A DNA stretch of 64,000 nt from Helicobacteraceae bacterium (lineage in GTDB: Bacteria > Campylobacterota > Campylobacteria > Campylobacterales > Sulfurimonadaceae), in contig JALWGC010000018.1 in the NCBI GenBank assembly GCA_027038835.1, positions 1 to 64,000 on the forward strand, in the 5' to 3' direction. Of the stretch, positions 5,292 to 21,038 are shown piece by piece. Numbering within the stretch: position 1 is the first letter of the stretch; every line of letters starts with the position of its first letter. Under the pieces are notes generated by a model. The model did no database searches, had not been told where the DNA came from, and saw nothing but the letters and a program-made list of their open reading frames with translations. The position numbers and the translations under genes are program-made.

Positions 5292-6035
5292 ATGGGAAAT
5301 TTGGCACTATTCAATTTTAGTGGGAACAAGGTTAGAGTTGCGATCGATGAACGGAATGGAGAGCCGTTTTGGGTCGCTAAAGATGTTTGCGATGTTCTTG
5401 GGTATAAAAATTCAAGAGATGCAATATCAAAGTTAGATGCAGATGAAAAGGGGGTGTCGGAAATCGCTACACCCTCTGGAAATCAAAAAATGAGCGTCAT
5501 CAACGAAAGCGGTCTCTACACCCTCATCCTTCGCTCAAACAAACCCGAAGCCAAACGCTTCAAAAAGTGGGTAACTTCCGAAGTGCTTCCAAGCATACGA
5601 AAAACGGGTGCGTACGCTTTGAAAAAAGAGATGCGTTTCAAAATGATGGGGTATAAGTCGCAGTTGGCGCAGAAAAACAAGAAGATCGCTTTGCTTGAGG
5701 CGAAGGTGGCACTCTTTGGAGAGTGTGAGAGGGTCAAGGAGACAGCGCGACATCTTTTGGACGAGGTGCGAAAACTTGAAAATGAAAATCTCGCTCTTAG
5801 AGAGGAGAACGCGAATGTAAAACGCACGCTTATACACATCAAAGACCGCTATCATGAGATCGTGCAAAAAGCGGACAATCAGATAGAGGCATTGCGAAAA
5901 GAGCTTGAAGTAATGACAAGTCATTTTCAAAGCATCAAAAACCTTGCATGTAACGGCAAAAATCTCAATACCGACACGAAGTCGAAGCATCTATACTGGG
6001 AGACGAAGAAGAGAAGCACACCGGCTTTGCTTTAG
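5292..6035 (+). CDS. BRO-N family antirepressor-like protein
   Basis: A 247-residue protein. Residues about 5-105 form a BRO-N domain: FWVAKDVCDVLGYKNSRDAI, then SVINESGLYTLILRS, then FKKWVTSEVLPSIRKTGAY. Residues 110-215 are a long coiled coil and replace the usual C-terminal KilA or antirepressor domain. BRO-N proteins bind DNA or phage repressors and often act as antirepressors. It has its own strong promoter and two operators, opposite a small HTH gene, and sits between head genes, which is an odd place for a lysogeny switch. Confidence 0.82.
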   Translation: MGNLALFNFSGNKVRVAIDERNGEPFWVAKDVCDVLGYKNSRDAISKLDADEKGVSEIATPSGNQKMSVINESGLYTLILRSNKPEAKRFKKWVTSEVLPSIRKTGAYALKKEMRFKMMGYKSQLAQKNKKIALLEAKVALFGECERVKETARHLLDEVRKLENENLALREENANVKRTLIHIKDRYHEIVQKADNQIEALRKELEVMTSHFQSIKNLACNGKNLNTDTKSKHLYWETKKRSTPALL

Positions 6036-6048
6036 GAGGATCACTCCT
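6034..6048. terminator. Short hairpin between convergent phage genes
   Basis: AGGAG (6034-6038) and CTCCT (6044-6048) form a 5-bp stem over the two converging stop codons (6033-6035 plus, 6041-6043 minus). There is no T-tract, so it is at best a weak bidirectional transcription block. Confidence 0.25.
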
Positions 6049-6427
6049 CCGCCTCGAAACTCATCACCATCACTTTGAAGCCCTTGAGCTTGTCTTCGTC
6101 GTTGATGCTCTCTTTGAAGCGTACAAGGTACTGATGCGATGAAGCGTCGATCACTTCGGGAACGAGCAGTTCTTTTACCTGCTTTTCGACATCATATAAG
6201 GTTTGGTATATCGTATCGATCCCTTGGCTCTCTTGAAGCTTGAAGCCGATGTAAACAAAGAAGCTGTGCTTTTGGCGCATATACTCCTGCCCCGTCGTTC
6301 TTTGGGGTACGATACGGATGATGGGGTAGGACTTCGGGCTGATGTTTGGCTCGAGTCCCACTTTTATAGTCGTGATCCCTTGGATGGTTGCGAGTTTTGT
6401 TTTTACTGCGTTGAGTAGGTTTATCAT
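6041..6427 (-). CDS. Probable tail terminator / tail completion protein
   Basis: A 128-residue protein encoded last in the leftward portal operon. It starts INLLNAVKTKLATI and has alternating beta-strands (PIIRIVPQRT, HSFFVYIGFKL, GFKVMVMSFEAEE), a pattern seen in gpU-like or neck tail-terminator proteins of siphoviruses. ATG 6427 is chosen because AAGGGG lies directly upstream. Function is inferred from size, predicted fold and position after an HK97 gp10-like gene. Confidence 0.55.
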   Translation of the reverse strand: MINLLNAVKTKLATIQGITTIKVGLEPNISPKSYPIIRIVPQRTTGQEYMRQKHSFFVYIGFKLQESQGIDTIYQTLYDVEKQVKELLVPEVIDASSHQYLVRFKESINDEDKLKGFKVMVMSFEAEE

Positions 6428-6428
6428 G

Positions 6429-6728
6429 TCATCCCCTTTGAAGTCCGAGTGTGAAGAGCGACTTGCCCTGCGCGGCTGCCTCTTTTTCACGATAAGTGAG
6501 TAGGAGTGCGTCGAACTCTTTTTGATAGAGGTCGGCTTTGAGCTTGAAGATATCCGCGTCGTTTACCATCGCCTCTTTTGCGGTGATGATGTAGGTTTTT
6601 AGCACCACAAGCCGCTCGTAGGTTTGTGTGTCGCTCACTCCAAGCGTATCGACATGCGCTATAGCTCTTTGCTCTCTCTCGTCGGTGATGTAGTCCGTTA
6701 TGTAGTCGTCGTAGTAGTTATAAATCAT
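6429..6728 (-). CDS. Probable head-tail connector protein
   Basis: A 99-residue, mostly helical acidic protein between the HK97 gp10-like gene and the putative tail terminator gene. In many phages this slot holds a head completion or connector protein. The start ATG overlaps the end of the upstream gene by eleven bases, and its TGA abuts the next start. No family motif is recognised, so the role is contextual. Confidence 0.55.
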   Translation of the reverse strand: MIYNYYDDYITDYITDEREQRAIAHVDTLGVSDTQTYERLVVLKTYIITAKEAMVNDADIFKLKADLYQKEFDALLLTYREKEAAAQGKSLFTLGLQRG

Positions 6729-7227
6729 CTATAAACCTTTCAAAATATCTGTTGAGTTTGGGTACATTCTCTTCGAGTGCGTCGTAGAAGAATGGATCGC
6801 CTTTGTAGCCGGGGTGATGCGGCCATTTGAAAAAGAACCTGTCGTGGATGTAGTTTTTCTTTTTCCACGCCATAATCTTCGCTTTTTCCTGCGGTGTTTT
6901 TTCGCCCCAAAACCATACATTTGAGCCATTCCAAACAAATTTAAGTGCCTGTTTGTTTTTGGCTTTGATTTCGTGCGGTGGTGAGCCATCATGTACAAGC
7001 TTTGCATAAGGAGCTTTTTTTGGATCAGCACCCATTACATACCCATCTTTGACTTTTTCAAAATAGAGCGACATGCGAAGCGCACCAGTTTTCATATGCG
7101 CATCAGATTTATAGACCGCATCTTCGTAAACCGCCTGAGCAAAGAGCGCTATAGCCTCTTCGATGTTCTCAAGTCTATCGAGTGTGGCTAATACTTGCTC
7201 TTTATCACTCTTGTTCAGTTCTATCAT
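6718..7227 (-). CDS. HK97 gp10-like tail/neck protein
   Basis: A 169-residue protein with the pattern of HK97 gp10-family neck proteins: TGALRMSL near residue 47, the VHDGSPPHEI block near residue 80, LKFVW, and WPHHPGYKGDPFFYDAL near residue 135. These proteins help join capsid and tail. The start overlaps the end of the portal gene by 23 bases, so they form one leftward operon. The Gly-Ser-Pro-Pro-His and His-Pro-Gly motifs support the family call. Confidence 0.75.
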   Translation of the reverse strand: MIELNKSDKEQVLATLDRLENIEEAIALFAQAVYEDAVYKSDAHMKTGALRMSLYFEKVKDGYVMGADPKKAPYAKLVHDGSPPHEIKAKNKQALKFVWNGSNVWFWGEKTPQEKAKIMAWKKKNYIHDRFFFKWPHHPGYKGDPFFYDALEENVPKLNRYFERFIDDL

Positions 7228-8497
7228 GTGGTAATGTCTCCAGCTCTTTGTAGATTTCGTTCAGGTTCTCCTCATCGAGGCTCTCCATATCGGCAGATAC
7301 CAGCTCTTTGAGTTTGACCGTTTTGTAACTCTGTGGCATCCCAAGCTCGAACATCGATGAAGCGATCTCGATCTCCTCTTTCATGTCTTTGATGTTGAAC
7401 TCGGCTGGGTAGTTTACGGTAAATTCCGCTTTTATCCCAAGCCAAAGTGAAGCGACCTCGAAGATGCTGCGCTCTACATTTTCCAAGCGTTGTGAGAAGT
7501 TTACGAGTGAAGCATTGAGCATCTGAAATTTGTAACGCTTTGCTATACCACTCTCATTAGTTCCATCGAGCACATCGGTATAACCTATCGTATCTATCAC
7601 CTCTTCAAGCCTCTTGATCTCATCTTGGTAAACCCGTGCCGGTGCTTCGCTTGGGCTGATAAACTCCGGTTTGCTTCCTTTATAAAGCAGCAGGTTGTCG
7701 GTTGATAGCTTGATAGGTGTTTCATCTTTGTCGGGTTTGTAGTTTTCGGGTATCTCGTAGGTAAGTACGCTGAAAGTTTGGCTTCTAAGTATCTCGTCAA
7801 GCTCACTGCGTAGGTTTAAGATGCGCTTGGAGATGTCGGCGATCTGAACAAACTCACCCACATAAGGAAACTCGTTGGACTCGCTGATGTAAAGCACTGG
7901 ACATACACCTAGATTGTGATCCCCTTGGCTTACGAGCTTTTTATCTTCATTGTAGATCGCCCATGATGTTTTGTCGTAGTAGCGGTATATCGTCTCTTGT
8001 TGTAAGTCGCCGAAGGGTTCCGTGTTATCGACGATCTCCTCGAAGATGACAAACTCAAACTTCCCGAACTTATCAAGCTTGTACTGGACGATGCTCTCTG
8101 GAGGTATCTCCACAAGGTAGGGAACACCTCTCTCCTTTAGCTGATCCGCCAAAGTATCTCCTAGATGCTCTGGCATATCGACAAGCACGATATTCGTGCC
8201 TCTTAGTTTCGCATTGACTGCAAAGGTTTTCATAAAGGTATCGATATCGTTGCCTTTGTTGTCGGCGTCTTTTAGCATAAGTTGGAGTTGTGGCGATTTG
8301 ATGTCGCGCATCGTCTTTTTTTGGAAGATGTAGCTGATAAACTGCTTCGTTTTTGGTGCGATGTAGTTCACATAGTATGCGATCTTCTTGCGGTTGTCAA
8401 ATTTGTCGTCTATCTCGCGCGGGAATTGAACGAGATCTTCACCACCTAACCCGTCATACGCTTTTTTGGCAAATCTCCATCTCTCTATAGGGTCCAT
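7205..8497 (-). CDS. Portal protein (SPP1 gp6 / DUF4055-like)
   Basis: A 430-residue portal-like protein. It shows an N-terminal region with YVNYIAPKTKQFISYIFQ, a beta-rich wing (IPPESIVQYKLDKFGKFEFV), a long helical stem region (LDEILRSQTFSVLTYEIPE), the GIAKRYKFQMLN crown segment and an acidic tail. Portals form the dodecameric DNA gate at one capsid vertex and dock the terminase. I chose ATG 8497 (AAAAAAGG upstream) over TTG 8524. The unusual point is its strand: terminase, scaffold and capsid are rightward while this gene and its three followers are leftward. Confidence 0.8.
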   Translation of the reverse strand: MDPIERWRFAKKAYDGLGGEDLVQFPREIDDKFDNRKKIAYYVNYIAPKTKQFISYIFQKKTMRDIKSPQLQLMLKDADNKGNDIDTFMKTFAVNAKLRGTNIVLVDMPEHLGDTLADQLKERGVPYLVEIPPESIVQYKLDKFGKFEFVIFEEIVDNTEPFGDLQQETIYRYYDKTSWAIYNEDKKLVSQGDHNLGVCPVLYISESNEFPYVGEFVQIADISKRILNLRSELDEILRSQTFSVLTYEIPENYKPDKDETPIKLSTDNLLLYKGSKPEFISPSEAPARVYQDEIKRLEEVIDTIGYTDVLDGTNESGIAKRYKFQMLNASLVNFSQRLENVERSIFEVASLWLGIKAEFTVNYPAEFNIKDMKEEIEIASSMFELGMPQSYKTVKLKELVSADMESLDEENLNEIYKELETLPHDRTEQE

Positions 8498-8536
8498 AAC
8501 AAGCCTTTTTTGTTGGATTTTCAAAGTGTAACTTGA

Positions 8537-15083: not shown

Positions 15084-15991
15084 AGCTGCTTCAAAATAAA
15101 ATAACAGACTATCTTAGTGCGAACTTCAACGAAGATGAAATACAATGGGAGAGTTCAGCTACATACAACTACGCAGATGAAGTTCGTGATGGACACTTTA
15201 TATACAAGTATGCCGGTGAAGATGGAACCAACACGGACGAGATGCCAAATAAAGACTATCAAAAACTCCCAACTGAGAGAAAATGGGTAAAGATCAGACC
15301 TACAAACTACTATGCCATGCTCGATGGTGAAACACAAACACAGACACAAAACCAAAACACTATAGAAATAACCTTAGCAACAAATAACTACGATGCATTA
15401 TGCTTACTTGGCATAGATGCTAAGAGTGTTACAGTCAAATTACGCGATACCGATAGCGGTGAAACTGTTTATACGCGAACTATTGATCTTTCTGATATTA
15501 CAAGAATAGTAGATTTTTATAGCTATTGTTTCGAAGAGATAATATTTAAAAGCTCCATCTATATAGACGACATCCCACTTTACACCAATGCAACGATGCA
15601 AATTGTAATCGACAACGATGGCGGGGTGGCATCGTGTGGTAGATTGGTTTGTGGTAGAACTTACTATATAGGTGAAACCGGGTATGGCATAAATCTATCG
15701 CAAGAGTCGTACTCAACCAAAGAAACAGATGTGTTTGGAAACACAACCCTTGTTCATAAAAATAGTCTAAATATCGATAGTTATGAAGTTTTTGTCCCAA
15801 CACCTTCGATCCCGAACATAAGAAGAAAATTCAAAGAACTCGATGCCGTTGCACTTCTTTTTATAATGGATGAGAGTGAAAATTCTATAATGGAAAATCT
15901 ACTGAATTTTGGGTACTACGAAAACTTTTCCATAGTGATACCAGATCCAAAAATCAGCACCGTTTCACTTCAAATTAAAGGAATACTCTAA
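15080..15991 (+). CDS. Probable tail tip / baseplate protein
   Basis: A 303-residue protein between the tape measure gene and the DGR target gene, the place of distal tail and hub proteins. It is beta-rich with one Thr/Gln-rich low-complexity stretch (QTQTQNQNTIEI, about residue 85) and shows no clear family motif. An ATGA overlap couples it to the tape measure gene and its stop is shared with the next start. A structural role linking the tail tube to the receptor-binding protein is inferred from position. Confidence 0.55.
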   Translation: MKLLQNKITDYLSANFNEDEIQWESSATYNYADEVRDGHFIYKYAGEDGTNTDEMPNKDYQKLPTERKWVKIRPTNYYAMLDGETQTQTQNQNTIEITLATNNYDALCLLGIDAKSVTVKLRDTDSGETVYTRTIDLSDITRIVDFYSYCFEEIIFKSSIYIDDIPLYTNATMQIVIDNDGGVASCGRLVCGRTYYIGETGYGINLSQESYSTKETDVFGNTTLVHKNSLNIDSYEVFVPTPSIPNIRRKFKELDAVALLFIMDESENSIMENLLNFGYYENFSIVIPDPKISTVSLQIKGIL

Positions 15992-16350
15992 TGGCTACAC
16001 AAATTCAACCATTTACACGGACACCAAGCAGAAAAAAACCAGCGACTTTCTCTGAAGATATGGACATAAGGCTCCAAGAAGAAAACAGTCGCATAGAGCA
16101 GATGAATGCTATGAGTGGTGAATTAAATACGCTTGCACAACAAGTCGATCAAAACGCATACCAAGTATCTATAAACAAAGCACAGACGATTGACGCTAAA
16201 AATGAAGCTATAAGCGCAAAAAACGATGCTGTAGCTGCGAAAGAGTACATAGAAAGCTACACAATCCCAAACGACGCGACATACAATCCGGCAACGATAG
16301 ACGCAAAAACGCGCAGAAGCCGTGTGTTGTCGCTGACTAAATCAATCTAA
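15991..16350 (+). CDS. Small coiled-coil tail protein, 119 aa
   Basis: A 119-residue protein, largely a coiled coil (residues 25-90, with the repeat-like AKNEAISAKNDAVAAKEYI), ending in a basic tail. It directly precedes the DGR target gene. Such short coiled coils often trimerise or tether tail fibres, so it may connect the variable adhesin to the tail tip. No family is recognised. Confidence 0.55.
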   Translation: MATQIQPFTRTPSRKKPATFSEDMDIRLQEENSRIEQMNAMSGELNTLAQQVDQNAYQVSINKAQTIDAKNEAISAKNDAVAAKEYIESYTIPNDATYNPATIDAKTRRSRVLSLTKSI

Positions 16351-16361
16351 AAGGAGTAAAA

Positions 16362-17690
16362 ATGAGTTTAAAAAGTAAAACTTTTGAGAAACTGGCAAAT
16401 GCAGTGGATCAGGCTGATGAAACGACTGTTGACGGAGTTGAGATACTCGCACTTGCTGCAAGTGCCGTAAAAAACCTAAATGAAGGAACGGACACGGAGG
16501 AGGACATCTATCAGATAGGTACACCGGGTGAGATTGGTTTTGGTGTAGCAACTTGCCCTGCGCATTTGATACCGAGTGGGTGGCGTGGGCTTGAGGGACA
16601 CGACAACATTATGAGCCCGAACTACGGGAACTATGTTGATGCAAACGGCTCTATCCTTGTTTATGTTCCAAAGCATTATTACAGATGGAGTGGAAACACG
16701 CTTGAGATATCGCACAGACCACTAAGCGGCTTTGTGATCGATAGAGCGTTTATAAATGGTGGTAAAGAGGTAAACGGTGTTTTTGTCTATAAGTATGGCG
16801 GTGGTAATATAAATGGAATCCTTGTAAGTAAAAAAGGGCTTGACCCAGTAAGCTCGTACAGTGGACATAATCCGGTCGCAAACATAAACGGTGCAAGCGA
16901 AAACAATCATGGAGAGTTCTATCAAGCTGTTAAAAGCGCCGGTAACGGATACTTCCTTACATCTGTATTTATCTACAGTATGTTGGCACGACTCTCGTTT
17001 GCACATGGTAAAGCGGCTACAAATCAAGTCGCATGTGCGTACAGCGATGTCGCTCCATATATGCCAAAGGGCTGCAACAATAATGCACTTGCCGACACGA
17101 ACGACAGTGGCGTAACATTTAGCCCAAGCGGCTATAGTAACTGTGCGCTGACAGGAAGCGGAGAACCGTTCGCAAAAACGACGCATAATGGACAGGACTG
17201 CGGTATAGCCGACTTGAATGGGAACATGTGGGAAGTTGCAAGCGGATTTATAAGAACTGATACAGATGGCTTTTTGTTACTAAAAGAGAGTGTAGATATA
17301 ACGGCTATTCAAGACGATGGCACAAGTGGAGGTGCTTATGACACCTCTTTGTACGATGCTCTTGATATCAGCGATGTCGTTAGCGGCAACGATGGATGGA
17401 TCAGAATAGGCAACGGTGCAAATGCAGTATTTGCTATGAATACAGACAGAACTACGGCTGACTACAAAAGAACAGCCATCGGCATACCGACTCAAAACGG
17501 TGTTAGCAGCGGGGGAACGACAGAGTTTGGTAACGACGGAGTGTATCGCTACCTGCGTGACCAAATGGCTTGTCTTGCCGGTGCGGCTTGGAGCGCCTCG
17601 TCGATTGCCGGTGTTTTCGCGCTCCATTTGTACGATGCTCGCTCCTACTCGTACTACGGTGTCGGTGCCCGTGCCTCGTACCTTGTGTGA
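16362..17690 (+). CDS. DGR target: variable C-type-lectin-like tail adhesin
   Basis: A 442-residue probable receptor-binding protein. Residues 1-60 are helical; the rest has the formylglycine-generating-enzyme/C-type lectin layout seen in DGR targets, with the marker block CGIADLNGNMWEVASGF near residue 286 and the variable strand-loop at the very C-terminus. Its last 112 coding bases are the VR, matched by the TR at 18140-18251 except at adenines, so about 15 surface residues (ending in Tyr, Ser, His, Asp, Gly) differ from the template. AAAAGGAG precedes ATG 16362. It should let the phage sample new host receptors. Confidence 0.92.
   Translation: MSLKSKTFEKLANAVDQADETTVDGVEILALAASAVKNLNEGTDTEEDIYQIGTPGEIGFGVATCPAHLIPSGWRGLEGHDNIMSPNYGNYVDANGSILVYVPKHYYRWSGNTLEISHRPLSGFVIDRAFINGGKEVNGVFVYKYGGGNINGILVSKKGLDPVSSYSGHNPVANINGASENNHGEFYQAVKSAGNGYFLTSVFIYSMLARLSFAHGKAATNQVACAYSDVAPYMPKGCNNNALADTNDSGVTFSPSGYSNCALTGSGEPFAKTTHNGQDCGIADLNGNMWEVASGFIRTDTDGFLLLKESVDITAIQDDGTSGGAYDTSLYDALDISDVVSGNDGWIRIGNGANAVFAMNTDRTTADYKRTAIGIPTQNGVSSGGTTEFGNDGVYRYLRDQMACLAGAAWSASSIAGVFALHLYDARSYSYYGVGARASYLV
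17565..17676 (+). repeat. DGR variable repeat (VR)
   Basis: A 112-base segment at the 3' end of the target gene, offset 575 bases from the TR. The two are identical at all 84 positions where the TR is not A. At 19 of 28 TR adenines the VR differs (9 to G, 5 to T, 5 to C). A GC-rich stretch GTCGGTGCCCGTG at its 3' end may be part of the initiation site for mutagenic homing. Confidence 0.95.
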
Positions 17691-17717
17691 GCGAACGGTA
17701 GTGAGCGGGAGTAAGTA

Positions 17718-18110
17718 ATGGGTGTGCATAGTGAAGCGATCCTCAATAGGAAGTATATGGAGATGATTAAGTTGTTAAATATCTATCTCAATCATTTCCC
17801 GCGCTATGAAAAATACGCGCTTGCAAACAACATAAGAAGTACGGCATATGAAGTGTACGACCTTATCAGCGAGTGCCAAAAACGGTATCATAAAAAAACT
17901 TCTATCACGCAGCTGGACATTACACACCAGAAACTTCGTATGCAGCTCTATCTTGCAAACGAACTGAACTATTTTGCGTTTAAAGACGGCAAAAAAGACG
18001 AAAAAGTAAACGCTTCAAAGCGTTATATGGCTATCTCCAAGCTTATTGATGAGCTTGGGAAGATTATCGGTGCTTGGATAAACAAGCTAAAAGAATTAGG
18101 ACATTTCTAA
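17718..18110 (+). CDS. avd: Avd, DGR accessory variability determinant
   Basis: A 130-residue basic four-helix-bundle protein between VR and TR, exactly where Bordetella phage BPP-1 carries avd. Recognisable blocks are YEKYALANNIRSTAYEVYDLI and KKTSITQLDITHQKLRMQLY (each split here), followed by KRYMAISKLIDELGKIIGAW. Avd forms a barrel-shaped pentamer that binds the DGR reverse transcriptase and template RNA and is needed for mutagenic homing. GGGAGTAAGTA precedes its ATG. Its TAA overlaps the ATG at 18110. Confidence 0.92.
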   Translation: MGVHSEAILNRKYMEMIKLLNIYLNHFPRYEKYALANNIRSTAYEVYDLISECQKRYHKKTSITQLDITHQKLRMQLYLANELNYFAFKDGKKDEKVNASKRYMAISKLIDELGKIIGAWINKLKELGHF

Positions 18111-19372
18111 TGCAAAACTTAGGGCAGCACACCAACATGAAAGCTTGTCTTGCCGGTGCAAATTGGAACAACTCGTCGATTGCCGGTGTTTTCACGCTCA
18201 ATTTGAACAATGCTCGATCCAACTCGAACAACAATGTCGGTGCCCGTGACTGTTTTTCCAAGCCTGAAACTGCAATGGCAGATACTGGAAGAAGAGGGAT
18301 GTGCTATCCTGCTAAAAGCGAAATCAATAAAGATGGTGGTTTTTTGAGTAGCAAAGTCGAAAATCAAACTCTATCGAAACGAATAGGATATCTGTTTGAA
18401 TTAACTTTTACAAAAGAGAATCTTTACGAAGCGTTTTTGATAGCGCGAAAAGGAAAAAGAAAAAAAAGAGCTACGCTGAACTTTGAAAAACATTTAGGAA
18501 GCGAAATAGATGCTTTATATGATGAATTGCACAATGGTACTTACAAACCAAAGCCATACAAGCAATTTGTAGTACATGAACCTAAAAAGAGAATTATCAA
18601 TGCTCCAGCATTTCGCGACCTTGTTGTGCAACACGCTATCTATAAAACTATCTACCCAATCTTCGATGCAACTTTTATAGATACATCGTACGGTTGCAGA
18701 AAAGGCGGTGGTACGCATAAAGCGAGTGAATACACACAAAAAGAGATGAAAAAATACAGTGGAGAGCTTTACTATGCCAAACTCGATATAAGAAAGTTTT
18801 TTTATTCGATAGATAGGGATATCTTGAGAAAACTGTTCGAAAAAAAGATAAAGGATAAAAAGTTTGTTGATTTGATGTGTGAGTTTGCGAAAATGGACAG
18901 CGAAAGAGGCGTACCAATCGGCAATCTTTTAAGTCAGATTTACGCGCTCATCTATCTCAATCCGCTCGATCATTTCATTAAGCGTGAGTTAAAGGTCAAA
19001 AGCTATGTACGCTATGTGGATGATTTCGTCCTTATCGGCTTAACAATAGATGAGGCAAAGCGCTATAAAGAGCTATGTGAAGAGTTTGTTCAAAGAGAGC
19101 TTGCGCTTGAGTTGTCGCACTACCAGATACAGAAGATAAAAAAAGGGATCAATTTTGTCGGATATCGCACATGGAAGAGCGTGAAATTTGTGCGCAAACA
19201 CAGTATGTACAAGTTTAAAAAATCGGCAAAAAAATCGAAAATTGAGTCAGTCGTCTCTTTAGTAGGACATGCAAAGAACACAGCAACACTTCCTTACTAT
19301 AAAAGGCTGCTGATTGAATTTCAGATTTTTAATCTATTACCAAAAAGGAGTCAAGCATGTTTAAATATGTAA
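18110..19372 (+). CDS. DGR reverse transcriptase, reading frame includes the TR
   Basis: A retron/group II-like reverse transcriptase. Visible blocks are HEPKKRIINAPAFRDLVVQHA, the first catalytic Asp in YYAKLDIRKFFYSID, the DGR-type VPIGNLLSQ (in place of the usual QGxxxSP), YVRYVDDFVLIG with the catalytic YVDD (codons 19013-19024) and NFVGYRTW. It copies TR RNA into cDNA with errors at adenines. The frame is open back to ATG 18110, which overlaps the avd stop and has AGGA upstream, so the protein may start with about 50 TR-derived residues. ATG 18275 and 18299 are alternative starts giving a usual-length enzyme. Confidence 0.92.
   Translation: MQNLGQHTNMKACLAGANWNNSSIAGVFTLNLNNARSNSNNNVGARDCFSKPETAMADTGRRGMCYPAKSEINKDGGFLSSKVENQTLSKRIGYLFELTFTKENLYEAFLIARKGKRKKRATLNFEKHLGSEIDALYDELHNGTYKPKPYKQFVVHEPKKRIINAPAFRDLVVQHAIYKTIYPIFDATFIDTSYGCRKGGGTHKASEYTQKEMKKYSGELYYAKLDIRKFFYSIDRDILRKLFEKKIKDKKFVDLMCEFAKMDSERGVPIGNLLSQIYALIYLNPLDHFIKRELKVKSYVRYVDDFVLIGLTIDEAKRYKELCEEFVQRELALELSHYQIQKIKKGINFVGYRTWKSVKFVRKHSMYKFKKSAKKSKIESVVSLVGHAKNTATLPYYKRLLIEFQIFNLLPKRSQACLNM
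18140..18251 (+). repeat. DGR template repeat (TR)
   Basis: A 112-base copy of the VR that serves as RNA template. It contains 28 adenines, mostly in AAC/AAT codons (ten in the VR reading frame), the codon type whose mutation gives the widest amino-acid range without stop codons. It lies between avd and the conserved part of the RT gene and is in frame with both the target's VR frame and the RT frame. Confidence 0.95.
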
Positions 19373-20147: not shown

Positions 20148-20492
20148 ATGCCAAACAACTTTAACGACATAAGCGCTACTTCGACGATTATCGCATTTCT
20201 TGCGGGTGCGTGGGGAGCGCTGTTGAACTTTATAAAAAGAGATACAAAAACAATGTCTATCACGAAAAAAATATCATTTTTTCTAATGGATATGGCTGTT
20301 AGCATGGGGTTTACGCTGTTGTCGTATCTCGGACTTGTCGGGTATGGACTAAACGATCTTGTCGCTGTCGCGCTAAGCGGCTTCATCGGGCATCTTGGAA
20401 CTCGAAGTACATACCTAATAGAGTTGCTCATAGCCGAAAAACTCGGCGCTAAAGCGACATTCGAAGAGATAAAAAAACAGCGGGGTGAGTGA
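20148..20492 (+). CDS. Phage holin
   Basis: A 114-residue membrane protein with about three transmembrane segments (TIIAFLAGAWGALLNFI, ISFFLMDMAVSMGFTLLSYL, and VAVALSGFIGHLG). A charged C-terminal tail follows (EEIKKQRGE). Size, topology and its place before spanin and peptidase genes fit a class I holin that opens the inner membrane at lysis time. Its TGA overlaps the next ATG (TGATG). Confidence 0.78.
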   Translation: MPNNFNDISATSTIIAFLAGAWGALLNFIKRDTKTMSITKKISFFLMDMAVSMGFTLLSYLGLVGYGLNDLVAVALSGFIGHLGTRSTYLIELLIAEKLGAKATFEEIKKQRGE

Positions 20493-20869
20493 TGCAGATA
20501 GATAGAATCGTCACGGCAGTTTTGCTTGTTGTCATAATCGTCGCACTCGGTTACATCGCCGTATTAAAAAGCGACATTCGCGCACTGTACGCAAGCATAG
20601 ACAAAGCAAAAAGCGCAAAGATCATCGAGAGCCAAAATCTTCAACAATGTTCACGCGAACTCGAAGCACTAAACGAGCGCATCGAGGAGCAACGAAGCAG
20701 CTACGAAGACAAGATAAAGAACTATGAAACAACGCTGAAGCAAAAGCCGAAAATCCGTTACAGAACTATCTACAAAACAATCATAAAGGAGCAAAAAAGC
20801 GATGAGTGCGAAGATATCAAAAGCGTTCTTGATAGCGTGCGCAACACTCCTTTTAGCCGCCTGCGCTGA
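20492..20869 (+). CDS. Inner-membrane spanin (Rz-like)
   Basis: A 125-residue protein: one N-terminal transmembrane segment (AVLLVVIIVALGYIAVL) then a periplasmic coiled coil with Cys at the QQCSRELE block and a basic region. This is the Rz (i-spanin) layout. The outer-membrane spanin gene starts inside its 3' end in another frame, the classic embedded Rz/Rz1 arrangement. ATG 20492 is preferred over the GTG three bases upstream since it is coupled to the holin stop. The pair fuses inner and outer membranes to finish lysis. Confidence 0.75.
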   Translation: MQIDRIVTAVLLVVIIVALGYIAVLKSDIRALYASIDKAKSAKIIESQNLQQCSRELEALNERIEEQRSSYEDKIKNYETTLKQKPKIRYRTIYKTIIKEQKSDECEDIKSVLDSVRNTPFSRLR

Positions 20870-21038
20870 CAAGCAGGAGGTTGTCTATGTCGATCGATAC
20901 AAAACGGTCAAAGTGCCGGTTAGATGCAAGACTCCCGATGTGTCATGTGACTTCAATCGAACAACTTACACGGAGGTTATCGGCTCGATGCTTGAGTGTA
21001 TAGTCGATCTAAGGAGAGCGAATGAAGTTTGCAAATAA
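20802..21038 (+). CDS. Outer-membrane spanin lipoprotein (Rz1-like)
   Basis: A 78-residue lipoprotein with a signal peptide and lipobox LLAAC (Cys at about residue 21), followed by a short Pro- and Cys-containing mature part. It overlaps the i-spanin gene by 68 bases in a different frame, as Rz1 does. AAAGGAG lies upstream of the ATG. Together with the i-spanin it would bridge the periplasm. Confidence 0.75.
   Translation: MSAKISKAFLIACATLLLAACADKQEVVYVDRYKTVKVPVRCKTPDVSCDFNRTTYTEVIGSMLECIVDLRRANEVCK

Follow-up and report, generated by a model that had tools for sequence, protein, structure and literature searches.

An apparently complete diversity-generating retroelement in a Campylobacterales prophage, with its template repeat inside the reverse transcriptase frame

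The diversity-generating retroelement (DGR) of Bordetella phage BPP-1 has the order mtd-avd-TR-brt. Its template repeat (TR) is not part of the brt frame; the start of brt is 144 nt downstream of TR. In BPP-1, the folded spacer recruits bRT-Avd (PMC12875486). VHML/VP58.5 and Pseudoalteromonas phages ACA1/ACA2 encode a SUMF1-like target, avd, and a reverse transcriptase (RT) CDS that runs from the end of avd through TR. According to PMC10612066, the RT of the ACA phages has the translated TR as an N-terminal extension. The DiGReF group 3 elements have a TR that overlaps the annotated RT ORF at its 5' end (PMC3521204).

The window analyzed here is a 64,000-nt stretch of a contig from a Helicobacteraceae bacterium. 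Judged by its genes and repeats, it almost certainly contains a complete DGR. The cassette lies on the plus strand in the order target (16362-17690), VR (the diversified repeat), avd (17718-18110), TR, and RT (to 19372). These gene coordinates agree with the BPP-1-like order target/VR/avd/TR/RT proposed in a first-pass annotation. The proposed identity as a DGR is borne out by the RT family and tree, Avd, the adenine-only change between TR and VR, the target fold, and the RNA elements. The locus resembles BPP-1 in its gene order, avd, adenine-specific change, IMH-type end, and GRNA-loop hairpin after VR. The two RTs share 35% identity over 66% of the query. Unlike that of BPP-1, the TR of the window lies inside the RT frame, which the first-pass annotation had not noted.

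The window shares with the VHML/ACA-type phages a TR in frame inside the RT ORF and a start at the avd stop. It differs from VHML/VP58.5 and ACA1/ACA2 in its RT (~37% identical), and their hairpin stem is long and perfect. Uncultivated phages from IMG/VR (L023-L029, L040-L059) and a Sulfurovaceae MAG (L022) belong to the same family as the window phage, with 63-75% RT identity. They have the same frame and the same RNA elements, but several carry other receptor bodies. The DGR of this Campylobacterales prophage is a good example of a system already known, and its arrangement is not new.

The cassette is surrounded by phage structural and lysis genes, which encode terminase, portal, major capsid protein, tape measure, holin, and endolysin. 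Chromosomal mutS2 follows the phage genes at 22267. The element is therefore an integrated prophage, as had been proposed; its left end is not on the contig. The setting is best explained by a Campylobacterales prophage with the DGR in its tail module. A Campylobacterota host had also been proposed, and the relatives agree with it. The window genome is of the same order as genome G232, whose DGR matches the Sulfurovaceae record L022. The G232 locus has the same leader and TR/VR as L022, and the Sulfurovaceae are Campylobacterales of the phylum Campylobacterota.

The head module of the prophage has an unusual inversion. The portal gene (7205-8524) and the neck genes (6041-8524 in all) are on the minus strand, opposite to the plus-strand terminase, capsid, and tail genes. 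An anti-repressor gene (5292-6035) lies beside the minus-strand block. Two overlapping ORFs after the holin gene (20489-21038) look like an inner and an outer spanin (coiled N-terminal anchor; lipoprotein-like start).

The target gene (16362-17690, plus strand) encodes 442 aa with a SUMF1/FGE-like body and the VR at the C terminus. It is a probable tail-tip receptor-binding protein, with profile matches to phrog_2889, phrog_20912, and phrog_5302 (tail). Its AlphaFold2 model had a pTM of 0.70. The best PDB match was TaqVP (5vf4; E 1.3e-7), which was the sole significant structural match of the model and was also found by phmmer. TaqVP is a known DGR variable protein, from Thermus aquaticus. The first-pass annotation gave the target a C-type-lectin-like end. 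The predicted structure upholds this in outline through the TaqVP match; the VR part of the model is of low confidence, with pLDDT below 50 at residues 406-433. PDB matches to the designed propellers Cake and Scone aligned over one short stretch and were set aside.

A 119-aa ORF just upstream of the target gene (15991-16350) is without a family match and may be a shortened tail-fiber-like gene. The target body also has relatives in the large Campylobacter phages CP220, CPt10, CP21, F379, and others (H42-H52), where they are annotated as hypothetical. These share ~28% identity over residues 56-376, and the VR-bearing end is not aligned.

The RT reading frame (18110-19372, plus strand; 420 aa) starts on the avd stop (TAATG) and continues across TR and a spacer into RT. 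The RT domain proper (18377-19372, plus strand) begins where BPP-1 Brt begins, and the spacer between TR and this Brt-homologous part is ~125 nt. We compared the window with 22 relatives (n = 23), all of which keep the RT frame open. The spacers of these 23 sequences contain 0 stops in the RT frame, against 9.8 expected with independent alignment columns (P about 4e-5; because the sequences are related, this overstates the significance). Both other spacer frames contain stops in 23/23. The spacers fall into six length classes, all multiples of three. An ATG, GTG, or TTG was found on or within 3 nt of the avd stop in 21/21 open-frame relatives examined. The nine closed-frame relatives examined have no start at the avd stop that leads into the RT frame, and in those with TR located, an ATG lies 36-45 nt ahead of the RT domain. 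The open frame was gained or lost 16 times on the RT tree. It comes and goes and is therefore not essential to DGRs.

The spacer inside the RT frame is also a structured RNA (18250-18370, plus strand). Its predicted helices are at 18250-18296, 18270-18281, 18310-18320, and 18338-18370. In these helices, 97.6% of alignment cells are paired, and there are 54 two-sided changes versus 5-10 with the partner slid. A predicted clamp helix of ten pairs spans TR. Its 5' arm, GGGCAGCACA (18122-18131, plus strand), lies just upstream of TR and pairs with the 3' arm, TGTGCTATCC (18300-18309, plus strand), on the spacer side downstream of TR. The clamp helix has 98.1% of cells paired and 21 two-sided changes, compared with 0-6 when slid. 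RNAalifold gave a competing hairpin (18297-18301/18305-18309), which we rejected; it has no two-sided changes and no gain over shuffles. A search of Rfam gave no match except a tRNA.

BPP-1 allows a matching 8-bp clamp helix (AGGGCAGG/TCTGTCCT), and Pseudomonas phage Bise and others allow clamp-like ones, all drawn as single best matches without a shuffled control. RNA on both sides of the BPP-1 TR reportedly wraps the RT-Avd complex in cryo-EM work. Covariation supports structured RNA flanking TR in the window clade, and this RNA may recruit RT-Avd.

The spacer shows weak constraint as a peptide. Its pN/pS is 0.75-0.83, compared with 0.2 in the RT core and 0.22-0.29 in TR, which codes for the end of the target. 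The spacer pS is less than half that of the RT core. RT leader residues 1-89 had pLDDT below 50, in a poor model. With a spacer pN/pS of ~0.8 and a leader modeled as disordered, we rejected peptide function as the main constraint.

In the clade of the window, RT is likely translated through TR. One RNA is probably both the RT message and the template, because the spacer is stop-free and in frame, is weakly constrained as a peptide, and carries conserved covarying helices. Such a dual-use transcript is the most economical account of the comparison. The frame would be selected to stay open so that ribosomes from the avd stop reach RT, and the sequence would be selected as RNA. The DiGReF survey inferred separate RT and TR RNAs (PMC3521204), whereas the comparison here favors one shared RNA.

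It is possible, if rather unlikely, that TR and the spacer act only as RNA. RT would then start within the spacer, at ATG 18275, ATG 18299, or TTG 18344, and the open frame would be a by-product of RNA conservation. The missing peptide constraint fits such an account, as do the in-frame ATG and TTG codons of the window spacer and the starts close to the RT domain in closed-frame relatives. Against it are the stop-free spacers, their length changes in threes, and the start codon at the avd stop in all open-frame relatives examined. L052, VP58.5, and ACA1 also have no ATG, GTG, or TTG between TR and RT that could serve as an alternative start. We rejected TTG 18344 as a conserved RT start; the codon is TTT, TTA, or TCN in several relatives.

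The first-pass annotation aligned VR (17565-17676) with TR (18140-18251) over 112 bases without gaps. It counted differences at 0/84 non-adenine and 19/28 adenine template positions (9 G, 5 T, 5 C), and we obtained the same counts. The probability that 19 randomly placed changes all land on adenines is 5e-15. The 112-base extent holds for the alignment and not for the diversified stretch, which is 106 nt after trimming at both ends. A repeat search gave 109 nt, with the VR copy starting at 17568. The codon before this is AAA in TR and ATG in VR. This first codon of the 112-nt alignment probably lies outside the repeat, because VR reads Met in many relatives while TR does not. At the other end, the last A>C (17674/18249) recurs in 23/23 relatives: TR has A and VR has C. 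It is therefore a fixed IMH/IMH*-type difference and no random edit.

The diversified stretch covers 17568-17673 in VR and 18143-18248 in TR (both plus strand), and the TR copy is in frame with both the target and RT. It contains changes at 16/24 template adenines (8 G, 4 C, 4 T) and 0/82 other positions (chance 2e-13). VR ends in an IMH-like element (17660-17674, plus strand), a 14-nt A-free G+C-rich tract common to TR and then the fixed C (A in TR), so that the window has an IMH with a fixed IMH* difference at its 3' end. We searched the host genome for further VRs and found none, with a single match to the TR/VR region. The 14-mer TTTGTACGATGCTC has a third copy in the target body (17348-17361), which matches VR 17627-17640 exactly and spans two diversified positions. 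This copy is probably due to chance and was not taken as a meaningful repeat.

The adenine-only pattern supports the view that the VR of the window phage records past homing. Among 86 distinct TR/VR pairs from relatives, 1319/2332 adenines were changed (57%) versus 113/7303 other positions (1.5%). We also asked, as the first-pass annotation suggested, whether VR variation in relatives leaves the TR adenines. Near-identical phages vary at template adenines only, with ratios of template-A to non-A differences of 6:0 (L074/L075), 20:0 (L076/L078), 11:0 (L099/L100), 16:0 (L106/L108), and 3:0 (L093/L094). More diverged pairs have some non-A VR differences too, as expected from ordinary divergence. 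The claim that the system has been active is thus supported by the change within the window and by the variation in its relatives.

It is improbable that the DGR no longer works and that VR only preserves earlier homing in frozen form. One C-A mismatch in the clamp helix (18125/18306) sets the window apart from all other rows of the alignment, and collapsed DGRs exist in the relative G355. Live VR variation is not visible because only one genome carries this copy, which also counts toward a defunct element. On the other side, the frame and the genes for RT, Avd, and the target are intact, RT retains its catalytic motif, and 97.6% of spacer pairs form across the alignment, in which the window is included.

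The avd gene (17718-18110, plus strand) encodes 130 aa and matches Pfam bAvd with 58.3 bits (cutoff 40) and phrog_3206. Its score against NCBIfam NF033474 was 69.7 bits, under the cutoff of 80. The RT frame matches phrog_1423 (E 5.7e-115) and contains the motifs IGNLLSQ, which fits the DGR pattern [IVL]GxxxSQ, and YVDD. The closest solved structure is the BPP-1 DGR RT (8ub7_A), to which the RT profile aligns at residues 89-398 to 2-317 (E 6.9e-67). The first-pass annotation called for a phylogeny of the RT against known DGR clades. In our maximum-likelihood tree, the window RT groups with the DGR RTs, which split from seven non-DGR RTs with support of 89. The search was short and some branches are long, and the seven non-DGR RTs are from the same order as the window genome. 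There is next to no chance that this is a retron or group II intron RT adjoining an unrelated duplicated receptor end: NCBIfam group II and retron models match it weakly, below their cutoffs, but it has SQ where the others have SP, falls in a separate clade, matches phrog_1423, has the BPP-1 RT as its best PDB match, and accompanies adenine-only TR/VR change, and as far as sequence allows that reading is already refuted.

A compact hairpin (17691-17706, plus strand; core GAACGGTAGTGA, 17693-17704) lies directly after the target stop. It consists of two outer pairs, a tandem G.A mismatch, two inner pairs, and a GGTA loop. The motif GARCGRTAGYGA (GARC-GRTA-GYGA) occurs within 70 nt after VR in 38/76 loci and 0 times in 834 kb elsewhere, and it has a single match in the window. 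The inner pair across loci is G-C in 23, A-T in 16, G-T in 1, and A-C in 0. The two inner pairs covary and the outer pairs vary. The loop of the target-site hairpin has the consensus GRNA (PMC3240598), which the GRTA loop of the window clade fits. Compared with the canonical form, an 8-bp-class stem with a GRNA loop, the window has a fitting GGTA loop and a short stem that contains a tandem G.A mismatch. We did not find a perfect GC-rich BPP-1-like hairpin after VR in the window clade. In BPP-1 (8-bp stem, GAAA loop) and in VP58.5/ACA1/phiARM81mr, the stems after VR are perfect over 7-8 bp and carry GRNA loops. The motif GARCGRTAGYGA is most likely a compact version of the hairpin already known from DGR target sites.

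The anatomy, the adenine-only change, the RNA covariation, and the open frame are plain in these sequences. The overall reading, which we hold to be very probable, is that of a complete and recently active DGR with a clamp-folded template, an RT translated through TR, and a VR replaced at IMH. The avd-TR-RT transcript would fold around TR, with the clamp helix joining the RNA before TR to the spacer after TR. The spacer helices would dock the RT-Avd complex. RT is most likely translated by coupling from the avd stop, straight through TR and the spacer. It would copy TR and place random bases opposite adenines. The cDNA would replace VR at IMH beside the compact hairpin and give new versions of the tail-tip receptor protein. 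We infer BPP-1-like homing and coupled translation, and the phage may switch receptors by means of its diversified tail-tip protein.

The Campylobacterales genome G355 contains two single ORFs with the target, one TR-like repeat, and RT. They encode 795 aa (L118, 379-2763; C1:83446) and 874 aa (L123, 109-2730; C5:748122), and the VR-avd-TR interval is missing. No avd match was found in G355, in a search without a positive control. The repeat of L123 resembles VR at first and TR thereafter, the pattern expected from VR x TR recombination. A Helicobacter ganmani prophage (BK070120.1; L038) contains a DGR with TR, VR, and RT; every protein of this DGR is annotated as hypothetical. It has changes at 10/21 adenines and 0/92 other positions, and a 9-bp stem with a GRNA loop after VR.

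New here are the distinction between constraint on the frame and constraint on the peptide, and the covariation of helices inside the frame. The novelty is modest, since TR as an RT extension had already been reported in the ACA phages. The analysis records an intact DGR of a Campylobacterales prophage, together with a related phage family rich enough for comparative tests. The covariation-supported helices and the compact hairpin could help to find DGRs whose canonical hairpins are weak. The family also lets one ask whether a single RNA serves as message and mutagenic template and whether translation interferes with mutagenesis. A more tentative and doubtful proposal is that selection has made message and template one RNA in this clade, with the frame kept open without selection on the peptide. 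Ribosome transit and RT-Avd binding would then compete on the folded template. If this is true, the competition could render mutagenesis self-limiting or tie it to the end of translation.
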